This document shows, one piece after another, positions 59,097 to 64,000 of a DNA stretch of 64,000 bases. Each line of letters begins with the position of its first letter. Position 1 is the first letter of the stretch. The position numbers and the translations under genes are program-made. Where the stretch lies: positions 62,001-126,000 of the forward strand of contig SLCK01000023.1 of NCBI GenBank assembly GCA_007125845.1, read 5' to 3'. The notes under the pieces were generated by a model. The model ran no database searches. It was not told where the DNA came from and saw nothing but the letters and a program-made list of their open reading frames with translations. This DNA comes from Gemmatimonadota bacterium (GTDB lineage Bacteria > Gemmatimonadota > Gemmatimonadetes > Longimicrobiales > Gaopeijiaceae).

Positions 59097-60047
59097 ATGT
59101 CAAAGCAGACGTTCGAGCCCCACCAGTGGGCGGTAATCCTCGGAGGATCCAGCGGATTCGGGCTGGCCGCGGCAAAGAAGCTCGCGAGGCACGGGATGAA
59201 CCTCTGCATCGCGCACCGGGACCGGCGCGGTGCCATGCGTCGCATCGAGCCCGAGTTCGACGCGCTGCGCGCAGAGGGCGTCTCCGTCGAGACGTTCAAT
59301 GCCGACGCGCTCAGGGACGACGCGCCGGCGGAGATTCTGGACGCTCTCCAGGAGGTGATGGGTGGGGACGGCGAGGTACGGGTCCTCCTGCACTCCATTG
59401 CCTTTGGGAACCTCAAGCTCATTGGACCGGACGCCCCGTCCTCGAACGAGGCCTCTGAGCGGTTGGCGGCCGAGCTCGGGGTGGAGAGGGACCGCATCCG
59501 TGAAGTCGCGGACCGGTTGTTCGCCGAAGGTGTCGACGGGCTTCAGGGACTGGCCAGTCCCCCCGAATATCCGGAGGGGATGTACCTGGAGGCCGAAGAC
59601 ATGGCCCGGACCGTCTACGCAATGGGGACCAGCCTCCTGAGCTGGACCCAGGAGATTGTGGGGCGGGAGATGTTCGGGGCCGACGCGAGAGTGCTCGGGC
59701 TCACCAGCGAAGGGAACGCGGTGGCCTGGAAGGGCTACGCCGCGGTTTCCGCGGCGAAGGCGGCGTTGGAGGCGGTGTCCCGGGCCATTGCCGTCGAGCT
59801 CGCGCACCTTGGCCTCCGGTCGAACATCATTCAGGCGGGTGTGACGGACACTCCGGCGCTTCGCGTGATTCCCGGGAGCGCCTATCTCACGGCTCAGGCC
59901 CGGACGAGAAATCCCTTCAAACGACTTACGACCCCCGATGACGTGGCAGACGTGATCTACCTTCTCGCCCTCCCGGAGTCGGCGTGGATCAACGGAGACG
60001 TGATTCGCGTGGACGGAGGCGAGAGCGTGTCCGGGGCATCGCGATGA
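59097..60047 (+). CDS. Enoyl-ACP reductase-like SDR (FabI/FabL type)
   Basis: 316 residues of the short-chain dehydrogenase fold. The nucleotide motif GGSSGFGLAAAKKLARHG is SDR-like rather than the usual FabI loop, but the catalytic pair is Tyr214-x6-Lys221 (GYAAVSAAKAAL), the spacing of enoyl-ACP reductases, and LLHSIAFGNLKL matches the FabI strand-5 motif. It probably reduces enoyl-ACP with NAD(P)H as the last step of each elongation cycle. It opens a seven-gene operon; its stop overlaps the fabH-like start as ATGA. Confidence 0.85.
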   Translation: MSKQTFEPHQWAVILGGSSGFGLAAAKKLARHGMNLCIAHRDRRGAMRRIEPEFDALRAEGVSVETFNADALRDDAPAEILDALQEVMGGDGEVRVLLHSIAFGNLKLIGPDAPSSNEASERLAAELGVERDRIREVADRLFAEGVDGLQGLASPPEYPEGMYLEAEDMARTVYAMGTSLLSWTQEIVGREMFGADARVLGLTSEGNAVAWKGYAAVSAAKAALEAVSRAIAVELAHLGLRSNIIQAGVTDTPALRVIPGSAYLTAQARTRNPFKRLTTPDDVADVIYLLALPESAWINGDVIRVDGGESVSGASR

Positions 60048-61042
60048 GCCTCTACCTGCACGCCCTCGGACACTTTCATCCCGAGAACGAGATTACGAAT
60101 CGCTTCCTGGAAGAGCTCGACATCGGGACGAGCGACGATTGGATCATGGAGCGGGTGGGGATCCGGAGTCGTCGGACCGTGATGCCGCTCGACTACATCC
60201 GGGAGACGCGAAACCGGAATCCGGTCGAGGCCAGCGAGGTCGCTCTCTACAGTCATGCCGAGACCGGCCGGCTCGCTACTGAGATGGCCATGGAGCGGGC
60301 GGGCATCAGCCGGGACGACATCGGGTGGGTGATCGCCGGATCCAGTCGGCCGGACACTCTCTCGCCCGCCGACGCCTGCAACGTAGCCGAAGCGCTGGGC
60401 ATCGAGGCGCCCGCGTTCGACATGAACTCCGCATGCACCAGCATGTTCGTAGCGATCCACACGCTGGCCGCGATGCGCCCGGAGGCCGTACCGGAGTACG
60501 TTCTCATCGTGACGCCGGAGACGTTGACCATGTCCGTCGACTACGCGGACCGCTCGGCTTCGGTGCTCTGGGGCGATGGGACGACGGCCGCGATTCTGTC
60601 CACGAAGGTGCCGTCCGCGATCGAGATTCTGGGCACAGAGCTCGAATCCAGCCCGGCGGGCCGTGAGAAGGTCGTCGTGCCGCTTGGACGTCACTTCTTC
60701 CAGGAGGGCCGAACGGTCCAGATGTTCGCGATCAAGAAGACGATCCGGCTGCTGCGGCGTCTTCAGGCGAGCTTCGGTAAGGATCCGGAGCGGAGCTTCC
60801 GATTCGTCGGGCACCAGGCGAACCTGCGCATGCTGGAAGCCGTATGCGAGCAGTGCGATATTGCGGAAGCCCGCCACCACAGCAACGTGGCCAACTATGG
60901 GAACACGGGAGCGGCGGGTGCCGCAGCGGTGATCTCCATGGAATGGGATCAATGGGGGCCGGGCGATGACATCGCGGTGGTCGGAGTAGGGTCCGGTCTG
61001 ACCTGGTCCAGCTTCCTTCTGAGATTCGGAGAGGCACCGTGA
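60044..61042 (+). CDS. 3-oxoacyl-ACP synthase III (FabH-like)
   Basis: 332 residues. Thiolase-fold KAS III: nucleophile Cys131 in FDMNSACTSMF, His257 in FVGHQANLRMLEAV and Asn287 in ANYGNTGAAG; the C terminus VGVGSGLTWSSFLLRF is typical. FabH primes chain synthesis by condensing acyl-CoA with malonyl-ACP. An insertion (residues ~44-70, TVMPLDYIRETRNRNPVEAS) sets it apart from housekeeping FabH. Start ATG 60044 overlaps the reductase stop, and its stop overlaps the fabA start as GTGA. Confidence 0.9.
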   Translation: MSLYLHALGHFHPENEITNRFLEELDIGTSDDWIMERVGIRSRRTVMPLDYIRETRNRNPVEASEVALYSHAETGRLATEMAMERAGISRDDIGWVIAGSSRPDTLSPADACNVAEALGIEAPAFDMNSACTSMFVAIHTLAAMRPEAVPEYVLIVTPETLTMSVDYADRSASVLWGDGTTAAILSTKVPSAIEILGTELESSPAGREKVVVPLGRHFFQEGRTVQMFAIKKTIRLLRRLQASFGKDPERSFRFVGHQANLRMLEAVCEQCDIAEARHHSNVANYGNTGAAGAAAVISMEWDQWGPGDDIAVVGVGSGLTWSSFLLRFGEAP

Positions 61043-61632
61043 AGTACAGCGAGTTCAGAGAGCGGGATCATTTCACGGCCACCGAGATTCTCGCAATGGC
61101 CTATGGGCGACTCGTCGAGGACGCGCCCCGGGAGTTCAACTCGCGTCTCCCGCTTCCACCGATGCTCATGGTGGATCGCGTCGAGCACATCGCCGGCGGC
61201 GGGAGGAAGGGGCGCATCGAGGCCTCGCGCGACGTGAGGCTCGACGATTGGTTCTTCCAGTGTCACTTCCTCGGAGATCCTGTACAGCCGGGATGCCTCG
61301 GGGTCGACGCGATCTGGCAGCTCATCGGGTTCTATTGCTGCTGGAGTGGGGCCCTCGGAACGGGGCGCGCCCTGGGGTGCGGAGAGGTGGAGTTCGCGGG
61401 ACAGATCCGCCCCCGCGACACTGTCGTCACGTATGAGGTCGACATCGTTCGCTACCAGGAGCTTCCTCGTTCCGGATCGTCCATCGCGATCGGGGACGCT
61501 CGGGTCATGGTCGACGGGGAGGAGATCTATCAGGTGAGACGCGCGAAGGTCGGAGTCTTCAAGGACATCGACTATCCTGATTATCCGTGGCCTTCGAAGA
61601 ACGCACGTGGTGGACAGATGGAGGGAGGATGA
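61039..61632 (+). CDS. 3-hydroxydecanoyl-ACP dehydratase-like protein (FabA family)
   Basis: 197 residues, GTG start. The FabA hot-dog fold is very clear: RLPLPPMLMVDRV, then CHFLGDPVQPGCLGVDAIWQ with catalytic His76 and Asp90, and ALGCGEVEFAGQIRPRD. FabA dehydrates 3-hydroxyacyl-ACP and, in gamma-proteobacteria, isomerises trans-2 to cis-3-decenoyl-ACP, the branch to unsaturated acids. Here a FabZ gene follows directly, so the two dehydratases may have different chain or isomerase roles. Stop overlaps the next start as ATGA. Confidence 0.9.
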   Translation: MKYSEFRERDHFTATEILAMAYGRLVEDAPREFNSRLPLPPMLMVDRVEHIAGGGRKGRIEASRDVRLDDWFFQCHFLGDPVQPGCLGVDAIWQLIGFYCCWSGALGTGRALGCGEVEFAGQIRPRDTVVTYEVDIVRYQELPRSGSSIAIGDARVMVDGEEIYQVRRAKVGVFKDIDYPDYPWPSKNARGGQMEGG

Positions 61633-62087
61633 CCCAGGTGCTCCGGCCGGACCAGGTCCTCGAGCTGCTCCCGCAGCAGGAGCCGTTTCGCTTCGTGGAC
61701 GAGATCCTCGAGGTGGACGAGGACCACATCGTGGCCCAATGCCGATTCCCCCCGGAATCGGACTTCTACCGCGGACATTTCCCGGGCAATCCGGTCACTC
61801 CAGGGGTGATCCTCCTGGAATCGATGGCGCAGGTGGGTGTGGTCGCTCTCGGTATCTACCTCTACGCCGTGCAGGACGGAATGGAGGAGGTCCGTAAGCG
61901 CCTGGCGTACTTCACGGATGCCGAGGTCGAGTTTTCCGGGCTGGTCGGGCCCGGGCAGCGGGTGACGACGAGAGCCCGGAAGGTGTTCTTTCGCAGGAAC
62001 AAGATTCGCAGTGAGGCGGAGATGAGGCTGGACGACGGTACGTTGGTCTGCTCAGGTACGATTTCAGGGATGGGAGTACGGCAATGA
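61629..62087 (+). CDS. 3-hydroxyacyl-ACP dehydratase (FabZ-like)
   Basis: 152 residues from ATG 61629, which overlaps the fabA stop; GTG 61638, with GGGAGG 9 bases upstream, is an alternative. The FabZ hot-dog motif reads FYRGHFPGNPVTPGVILLES, with catalytic His50 and Glu64. It dehydrates 3-hydroxyacyl-ACP to trans-2-enoyl-ACP without isomerisation. Compared with FabZ it has a slightly longer C terminus. The stop overlaps the fabF start by four bases. Confidence 0.9.
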   Translation: MTQVLRPDQVLELLPQQEPFRFVDEILEVDEDHIVAQCRFPPESDFYRGHFPGNPVTPGVILLESMAQVGVVALGIYLYAVQDGMEEVRKRLAYFTDAEVEFSGLVGPGQRVTTRARKVFFRRNKIRSEAEMRLDDGTLVCSGTISGMGVRQ

Positions 62088-63373
62088 GTCGCAGGGTCGT
62101 GGTGACCGGCATGGGTGTGGTGGCCCCCAATGGGGTCGGCCTCGAGTCCTACACTTCCGCCCTCCGGGAGGGGCGCTCCGGCTTGGCCCACGTCCCGATC
62201 ATGGAGGAGTTGAATTTCGCCTGCCAGGTCGCGGGCGTGCCCGATCAGCAACGGGTGGACGAGATCTGCGAGGCGTCCTTTCCCGAGGACGAGCTTCTCG
62301 CGATGAACTCGAGCCACCGGTTCGGATGCGTCGCGGCGGTGGAGGCATGGACCGACGCGGGGTTTGAGCCTCCGGAGCGCGTGGACGAGACCGTGTATTG
62401 GGATGCGGGCGCGGTGATCGGCACGGGAATCGGAGGTCTCGACACCACGGGTGAGAAGCTCATTCCGCTCACCGACGCGGGCCGCGTCAGGCGTCTGGGA
62501 AGCACGCTGGTCGAACAGATCATGGGAAGCGGCGTGTCGGCCAGGGTGTCCGGGCTTCTTGCGCTTGGCAATCAGGTCACGTCCAACTCGAGCGCCTGCA
62601 GCACCGGTACCGAGGCCATCATCGAAGGCTACCAGAGGATCCAGATCGGTCGGGCGGACCGCATGCTCTGCGGTGGGACGGAGGCGGCCACCCACTACAT
62701 CTGGGCCGGCTTCGACTCCATGAGGGTGCTCTGCCGCAAGCACAACGACGATCCGGAGGCGGCCTCTCGGCCGATGAGCGCTTCGGCATGCGGATTCGTT
62801 CCGGGAAGCGGGGCCGCCATCCTCCACCTCGAGAGCCTCGAGAGTGCGCAGGAGCGGGGTGCTCGCATCTACGCGGAAATTCTGGGTGGAGCCTTGAACT
62901 GTGGCGGCCACCGGAAGGGCGGAAGCATGACCGCTCCGAATCCCGAGAGCGTACGCCGGTGTATTCAGGATGCGGTGGAGGATGCCGGGATCCCATCCGA
63001 GGAGATCGATCTGATCAACGGTCACCTGACCGCGACGGGCGCGGATCCCGGAGAGGTGGAGAACTGGGCGCTCGCCCTCGGGCGCTCTCCGGAAGACTTT
63101 CCGGCGATCCATTCCACGAAGTCATTGATCGGCCATGGGTTGGGTGCGGCCGGGGCGCTGGAGTCGGTGGCCTGCGTCCTCATGCTGCGTGACGGATTCC
63201 TGCATCCTTCGTTAAACTGTGAAGATGTGCATCCGGAGATCGAGGCGTACGGCGATTCGATCCCCCACGAGACCCGGGAGATGCCGGAGTTGCGCACGAT
63301 CATCAAGTCCGGCTTCGGATTCGGTGACGTGAACGCCTGTGTGATCTTCCGTCGCTGGGATGACGCGACCTGA
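62084..63373 (+). CDS. 3-oxoacyl-ACP synthase II (FabF/FabB-like)
   Basis: 429 residues. KAS II catalytic triad Cys172 (NSSACSTGTEAI), His314 (INGHLTATGADPGE) and His351 (STKSLIGHGLGAAG, with Lys346). It elongates acyl-ACP with malonyl-ACP. Two regions depart from housekeeping FabF: the usual HGTST loop reads HLTAT, and the PFDxxRDGF gating segment reads PMSASACGF. This suggests a specialised synthase. It is coupled to the FabZ gene by ATGA and followed 32 bases later by an ACP. Confidence 0.9.
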   Translation: MSRRVVVTGMGVVAPNGVGLESYTSALREGRSGLAHVPIMEELNFACQVAGVPDQQRVDEICEASFPEDELLAMNSSHRFGCVAAVEAWTDAGFEPPERVDETVYWDAGAVIGTGIGGLDTTGEKLIPLTDAGRVRRLGSTLVEQIMGSGVSARVSGLLALGNQVTSNSSACSTGTEAIIEGYQRIQIGRADRMLCGGTEAATHYIWAGFDSMRVLCRKHNDDPEAASRPMSASACGFVPGSGAAILHLESLESAQERGARIYAEILGGALNCGGHRKGGSMTAPNPESVRRCIQDAVEDAGIPSEEIDLINGHLTATGADPGEVENWALALGRSPEDFPAIHSTKSLIGHGLGAAGALESVACVLMLRDGFLHPSLNCEDVHPEIEAYGDSIPHETREMPELRTIIKSGFGFGDVNACVIFRRWDDAT

Positions 63374-63405
63374 ACGAACCGACTGCAAATCGAGGAGACT
63401 GGTTC

Positions 63406-63654
63406 ATGAAGAGAGACGAGGTGTTCACGAAAGTGGTGGAGATCATTGCGCCTTTCGCAAAGGACAAGGAGGCGCTGGACTCCGTTTCGGATGACACGAA
63501 CATCCTCCAGGATCTGAAGGTCAACTCCGCCCGGCTGGTAGATGTGATTCTCGACTTCGAAGACGAGTTCGACATCGAGGTCGAGGACGAGGACGCCGAT
63601 GCAGTGAACACGGTCGGCGACGCGGTGGATCTCATCCTGGCCAGGGTCTCCTAG
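63406..63654 (+). CDS. Acyl carrier protein
   Basis: 82 residues, acidic, four-helix ACP fold (VFTKVVEIIAPFAKDKEAL, DDTNILQDLKVNSARL, VILDFEDEFDIEVEDEDADA). The phosphopantetheine serine is Ser41 in KVNSARLVD; the usual GxDSLxxVE is altered, with Asn for Asp before and Ala for Leu after the serine. Such changes mark carriers dedicated to one pathway. It presumably holds the chain built by the preceding five enzymes. GAGGAG lies upstream of ATG 63406. Confidence 0.9.
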   Translation: MKRDEVFTKVVEIIAPFAKDKEALDSVSDDTNILQDLKVNSARLVDVILDFEDEFDIEVEDEDADAVNTVGDAVDLILARVS

Positions 63655-63658
63655 CGGG

Positions 63659-64000
63659 TTGAGCTTGGCCGGACTCCCCCTGAGGTCCAGAGCCGGGGTC
63701 GCGCTTCAGAGGACCGTCGGACGGGTGCTGAGCCCCTTCTGGATCCTCGGCGGCGCCTTCCTTCTCGTCGTCGTGATGGGGTACCGGATTCGAAATGCAA
63801 GAGAGGTTCGAGCGCGGTTCCGGAAGTTGATCCGGGGGGATCGACGCCCCCTCCTCATCTGCGCAAACCACCTCACGATGATCGATTCAGCTCTCGTGGC
63901 GTGGGCGCTCGGCGGAAGCTGGTGGTATCTCGTGAACTTCTCGCGCATGCCCTGGAACCTGCCCGAGCAGGCCAACTTCTCCCAGAACCCCCTGAACCGG
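63659..64000 (+). CDS. Acyltransferase (PlsC-like), N-terminal part, cut by window end
   Basis: An open frame from TTG 63659 runs off the window (114 codons). It encodes a membrane helix (LSPFWILGGAFLLVVVMGYR), basic residues, and ICANHLTMIDSALVAWAL. This is the NHX4D acyltransferase motif of the glycerolipid acyltransferase group, in the looser form NHLTMID. Start is uncertain: TTG 63659, TTG 63665 and GTG 63725 are all in frame. As the last visible gene of the operon it may transfer the finished acyl chain from the dedicated ACP. Confidence 0.7.
   Translation, partial: MSLAGLPLRSRAGVALQRTVGRVLSPFWILGGAFLLVVVMGYRIRNAREVRARFRKLIRGDRRPLLICANHLTMIDSALVAWALGGSWWYLVNFSRMPWNLPEQANFSQNPLNR

Follow-up and report, generated by a model that had tools for sequence, protein, structure and literature searches.

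Why should a bacterium that already has the ordinary genes of fatty acid synthesis carry a second, compact set with its own acyl carrier protein (ACP), and where would the finished chain go? The question is raised by positions 59097–64000 of a 64,000-nucleotide stretch of Gemmatimonadota DNA (the window; G000:C128:62001-126000, where G000 is the source genome, assembly GCA_007125845.1, 3.2 Mb and 95% complete). A reading-frame check identified seven co-directional genes there, encoding an enoyl reductase (ER), a beta-ketoacyl-ACP synthase III (KSIII), FabA, FabZ, an elongating beta-ketoacyl-ACP synthase II (KSII), an ACP, and a PlsC-type acyltransferase, and an eighth gene, for a phosphopantetheinyl transferase (PPTase), follows just past the window edge. 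The cluster is a secondary type II fatty acid synthase (FAS-II) module whose carrier and ketosynthase belong to classes of their own, and very probably operates as a dedicated line.

59097..60047, + strand: enoyl-ACP reductase of 316 aa, FabI/FabL-type short-chain dehydrogenase/reductase (SDR); adh_short_C2; Y214-x6-K221; insertion of ~60 residues
60044..61042, + strand: KSIII, FabH-like; ACP_syn_III; Cys-His-Asn retained; conserved insertion of ~20 residues
61039..61632, + strand: FabA-type dehydratase/isomerase; PRK05174; His/Asp active site
61629..62087, + strand: FabZ-type dehydratase; His/Glu active site; top models score under their own cut-offs
62084..63373, + strand: KSII; ketoacyl synthase match; gating residues replaced
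63406..63654, + strand: ACP; PP-binding; serine in VNSAR, not ADSL
63659..64000, gene end 64417 (C128; L008:5660-6418), + strand: PlsC/GPAT-type acyltransferase (GPAT, glycerol-3-phosphate acyltransferase), N-terminal part in the window; Pfam Acyltransferase PF01553
64401-65039 (L008:6402-7040), + strand: PPTase, 212 residues; Pfam ACPS; overlaps the acyltransferase end

A preliminary description, made from the sequence alone, had reported the row of seven and the 4-base overlaps among its first five genes. Both were borne out: all frames were present and their families were matched by profiles, and the first five genes were joined by ATGA/GTGA overlaps at 60044, 61039, 61629, and 62084, with gaps of 32 bases between KSII and ACP and 4 bases between ACP and the acyltransferase. 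The same description had suggested that the missing steps may lie beyond 64000, and this suggestion failed. In the sequence past the window edge, only the end of the acyltransferase and the PPTase were found before a dsbB-like gene, with neither a ketoreductase nor FabD among them. The operon was taken to end at the PPTase because the dsbB-like gene is on the opposite strand. Chance or a frame artefact was ruled out by the strong family match of each gene and by orthologues in other phyla. The odd features pointed out in the description, namely the serine context of the ACP, the changed loops of KSII, and the insertion in KSIII, are conserved in orthologues and therefore are not sequencing errors.

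Carrier protein, ketosynthase, and partner enzymes

The motif around the carrier serine was NSAR in 80 of 80 orthologues of the operon ACP, whereas 12 of the 12 canonical-cluster ACPs checked had DSL. The operon ACP scored below every curated NCBIfam cut-off and does not have the DSL motif of canonical AcpP. Such an NSA carrier may need the operon PPTase for its activation, and the private ACP, the adjoining PPTase, and the terminal acyltransferase would together be a channel apart from bulk synthesis.

In a profile search, KSII gave 303–307 bits with FabF models, under their cut-offs (TIGR03150, 302.8 bits against a cut-off of 493.75), and scored higher with FabF models than with FabB models. 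The Cys-His-His catalytic triad was present in all 76 aligned orthologues, in which Cys163, His303, His340, Lys335, Thr305, and Thr307 were all retained. The same 76 sequences carried the replacements D265G, N396A/S (N396S in the operon copy), and G402D, and KSII orthologues also had a four-residue insertion in loop 2; D265, N396, and G402 were all kept in 21 of 21 housekeeping FabFs. In Escherichia coli FabF, Gly402 acts as a gate pivot, Asp265 links loop 1 to loop 2, and Asn396 lies next to the GFGG motif; in the set of synthases covered by that study, only actKS is without Asp265, a lack that was proposed to disfavour gate opening (PMC7138838). Because three reported gate residues are replaced in every member examined, the family is, for enzymologists, a natural experiment on the FabF gating model.

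In the KSII tree, 26 sampled orthologues formed one clade (SH-aLRT, a likelihood-ratio branch support, of 100), which a branch of 1.76 substitutions per site sets apart from FabF/FabB, and the FabF from contig C37 of the source genome grouped with the housekeeping FabFs. The tree came from a quick search in which very long outgroup branches (C111, ApeO, ApeR, FabB) make deep placement unsure; for this reason only the unity and separation of the orthologue clade are claimed from it.

The remaining enzymes retained their catalytic residues. The ER has the Y-x6-K pair and the fold of SDR enoyl-ACP reductases of the FabI/FabL type; the pair Y214-x6-K221 was invariant in 21 orthologues, and the AlphaFold model (pLDDT 88) matched FabL and Thermus FabI best in the PDB, with many other SDRs nearly equal. 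The KSIII insertion, at about residues 48–67, was kept in orthologues, and the Cys-His-Asn triad is intact. FabA gave 203.9 bits with PRK05174, above the cut-off of 124, and 179.4 bits with TIGR01749, under the cut-off of 238.15. Its full active-site motif is kept, CHF-GDPV-PGCLG-D aligning with E. coli FabA, and His70 and Asp84 with GDPV-PGCLG-D-WQL were conserved in 64 aligned orthologues; it may have the trans-2 to cis-3 isomerase activity that would give a cis product. The NHx4D motif of the acyltransferase was invariant in 27 orthologues, and its predicted structure (pLDDT 93) showed weak matches to GPAT1, squash GPAT, and PatA. The predicted fold and the motif together support lipid acylation, although they do not name the acceptor.

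Housekeeping counterparts and distribution of the module

The preliminary description had suggested a dedicated pathway in place of bulk synthesis, a view that the rest of the genome upholds: the operon is not the sole fab locus, and its KSII lies outside the housekeeping FabF clade. Contig C37 has a canonical rpmF-plsX-fabD-fabG-acpP-fabF cluster with an ordinary DSL carrier, C65 a second enoyl reductase with the Y-x6-K pair, and C34 a FabZ fused to LpxC in an lpxD/lpxA gene neighbourhood; two further AcpS-type genes with strong scores were found elsewhere. The operon therefore duplicates existing functions, KSIII being the exception.

Outside the source genome, KSII matches in 98 relatives fell into two tiers, with 71–88% identity in nine further genomes from the family of the source genome and at most 40% elsewhere. 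In an evenly drawn set of 395 genomes of the phylum, 18 genomes from three families, the source genome among them, had an orthologue. When one genome per species was scanned, 172 related loci were recovered, of which the best 80 (KSII identity 59–88%) were taken for analysis. By record label, which can be wrong for metagenome-assembled genomes (MAGs), these 80 comprised Myxococcota (36), Gemmatimonadota (16), Thermodesulfobacteriota (10), Pseudomonadota (5), Acidobacteriota (3), and Spirochaetota and others. The module is thus present in at least six phyla, and Syntrophales, which are strict anaerobes, are among its carriers. Horizontal spread is likely, though not proven, because the KSII tree mixes phylum labels. 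In plasmid records, the matches were all of the ordinary FabF-like kind, the best of those listed reaching no more than 37%.

The recurring gene order was (ER)-KSIII-FabA-(ketoreductase)-FabZ-KSII-ACP-acyltransferase-PPTase. Gene content was counted in the 51 loci with enough flank: KSIII and FabZ were each present in 50, the acyltransferase in 48, FabA in 45, and the PPTase in 44. A FabG-like ketoreductase (Y-x3-K) occurred in 35, mostly between FabA and FabZ, and in none of the Gemmatimonadota copies examined. ER was found in 27 loci and an acyl-CoA dehydrogenase in 12, and their co-occurrence in one locus only suggests, without proving, that the two substitute for each other. One or the other was present in 38 of the 51, so the polyene-type chain considered in the preliminary description fits poorly. 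An acetyl-CoA carboxylase fusion of ~1880 residues lay downstream in 28 loci. The pairwise divergence of every other gene tracked that of KSII (Spearman 0.66–0.85; none of 500 permutations gave values this high), a pattern expected if the genes move and evolve as a group.

Some loci showed features of their own. In L115, L136, L138, L150, L143, L151, and L153, there was no FabA and a ketoreductase directly followed KSIII; these loci might yield the product in saturated form. In L099, L101, L102, L105, L132, and other Myxococcota-type loci, a helicase of ~920–1000 aa and a thiamine pyrophosphate-dependent enzyme were repeatedly found upstream, and the carboxylase fusion downstream is a single chain. 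L121 (CP070716.1) had an apparently isolated KSII-ACP pair without other genes, in a stretch that holds masked N runs.

Proposed pathway, alternatives, and known systems

The explanation we favour, at about even confidence, is a self-contained, patchily distributed FAS-II line that would deliver one particular acyl chain, probably made cis-unsaturated by FabA, to a membrane lipid. In the order of reactions that the gene content suggests, the operon PPTase would activate the NSAR carrier, KSIII would start the chain on it, and KSII would extend the chain through its altered gate. FabZ would dehydrate and the FabL-type reductase would saturate in ordinary rounds; at one chosen length, FabA would isomerise the double bond to cis-3, and the bond would survive. 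The PlsC-type enzyme would then transfer the completed chain from its carrier onto an acceptor of the glycerolipid type, a step we consider slightly favoured, and the unusual envelope lipid of the preliminary description would fit this in-operon acyltransferase. For ketoreduction and malonyl transfer, the Gemmatimonadota operons would draw on housekeeping enzymes, whereas elsewhere these steps are partly locus-encoded, and the carboxylase fusion, where it lies downstream, may be the source of malonyl-CoA. The presence of FabA suggests the cis double bond, and the source genome fits this, since neither it nor its genus mate G001 had a match to the desaturase families PF00487 and PF03405; FabA is therefore the only unsaturation route found in G000.

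A cis-unsaturated product is nevertheless a tentative assignment, somewhat short of even, and several observations weigh against the proposal as a whole. A desaturase-family gene (PF00487) was also encoded by 8 of the 10 Gemmatimonadota carriers tested, and seven orthologous loci had no FabA between its neighbours; the cis double bond is therefore not taken as defining, and it cannot be the product shared by the whole family. ER was missing from 24 of the 51 well-flanked loci, the best structural match of the acyltransferase was weak (E 7.7e-6, TM 0.54), and most of the data are from draft MAGs. Lipid data for any carrier were not found in the literature, nor was the lipid composition of Syntrophus.

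The intact FabA site, the lack of desaturase matches in G000 and G001, and the strict anaerobes among the carriers would also suit an oxygen-independent FabA/FabB-like route that supplies cis chains to ordinary phospholipids in bulk. We regard this as unlikely, because KSII scores better with FabF models than with FabB models and sits in neither clade, there would be no need for a private ACP, PPTase, and acyltransferase, and the eight other carriers with a desaturase-family gene and the seven loci without FabA do not follow such a pattern. The PF00487 genes of eight of ten carriers likewise leave the idea of the operon as a simple desaturase substitute unsupported as a rule. Another explanation is that, in the source genus, part of primary synthesis has passed to the operon. 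The operon KSIII was the only ACP_syn_III match in G000, as its orthologue was in G001, and the canonical cluster on C37 has no fabH between plsX and fabD, so that KSIII would start all chains. As the sole FabH-type enzyme found in a 95%-complete genome, KSIII may indeed also serve general synthesis in this genus. That incompleteness itself tells against a takeover, however, as do the further FabH-type genes in most other carriers; moreover, two non-carriers of the family (G030 and G033, one of them 99% complete) had no FabH-type match at all, which argues that FabH is not indispensable there, and we judge the takeover very unlikely.

A further alternative is a lipid A or very-long-chain line, which would place a special chain on a non-phospholipid envelope lipid in the manner of the rhizobial AcpXL/LpxXL cluster; that cluster, like the operon, combines a private ACP with a dedicated dehydratase, ketosynthase, reductase, and terminal acyltransferase. 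The very-long-chain fatty acid of rhizobial lipid A is treated in two papers (PMC11901934, PMC5613085). The shared logic of one cluster and the carboxylase downstream in 28 of 51 loci, which suggests heavy use of malonyl-CoA, speak for this placement. The operon differs in having FabA, KSIII, and a PPTase, and its acyltransferase has PF01553 as its only Pfam match, with NHx4D and a fold nearest GPAT/PatA rather than an LpxL-type match; among the recurrent neighbours, nothing recognisable as a sugar-nucleotide or lipid A gene was seen. Such a placement is accordingly quite unlikely. We consider it highly improbable that the operon makes polyunsaturated or very long chains as a dissociated (type II) synthase, in which the rewired KSII gate, its D265 network lost, would hold the chain between rounds while FabA and FabZ alternated to place several cis double bonds. 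To our knowledge, such chemistry belongs only to giant type I polyunsaturated fatty acid synthases. An actual type I synthase of that kind (Pfa; multidomain, with ketosynthase, malonyl transferase, tandem ACPs, and ketoreductase) was ruled out, since all activities here are on separate small proteins.

Against the background of other known systems, the dedicated line has familiar enzymes in an unfamiliar arrangement. It shares enzyme families and reaction types with the canonical plsX-fabH-fabD-fabG-acpP-fabF cluster, with which it coexists, but has a different gene order, FabA together with FabZ and ER, its own acyltransferase and PPTase, an NSAR carrier, and a re-gated ketosynthase. The His/Asp site of FabA and the surrounding E. 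coli motif are common to the FabA/FabB anaerobic pathway; the partner ketosynthase is not of the FabB type, and the ACP is private. Aryl polyene clusters likewise contain FAS-like ketosynthase, dehydratase, and ACP genes and a lysophospholipid-type acyltransferase, but the operon has ER and FabA and no chain-length factor, and this candidate was rejected: the acyl-CoA synthetase, glycosyltransferase, LolA, and MMPL transporter genes were not in the operon and were unrecognised among the recurrent neighbours of the 80 loci. The ladderane-type FAS-II clusters of Kuenenia and Desulfotalea are similar in that extra divergent ketosynthase and ACP paralogues lie with FAS-II genes in deltaproteobacteria; these clusters also include genes of the radical SAM and phytoene-desaturase-like types, and no FabA was located in Kuenenia (PMC2649909). 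The operon has FabA, and neither of those two gene types was present in it or in the recurrent neighbours scanned, so a ladderane-type assignment was also rejected. We found no description of the cluster in the open literature, which was the scope of the search (subscription papers lay outside it), and provisionally regard it as undescribed. The fixed non-standard ACP and ketosynthase signatures, kept as one unit in at least six phyla, point to a widespread, apparently unassigned membrane lipid, for which the NSAR carrier is a gene marker that lipid chemists can correlate with orphan lipids from the environment.

Additional ketosynthase-like and duplicated genes in the source genome

A third FabF-like ketosynthase (C102, L010:1389-2819) adjoins a geranylgeranyl-reductase-like flavoprotein and a fumarate-reductase-like subunit, and falls outside the well-supported clade of Gemmatimonadota housekeeping FabFs. 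A very divergent ketosynthase-like gene (C111, L011:8708-10426), with an end branch of 10 in the KSII tree, lies downstream of a citrate synthase gene and a gene of the metallo-beta-lactamase fold. Near-duplicate SDR genes were found on C144 and C43 (L016, L017), and two AcpS frames of 138 residues with almost equal scores on C92 and C68; these are perhaps strain duplicates or recent duplications in the assembly.

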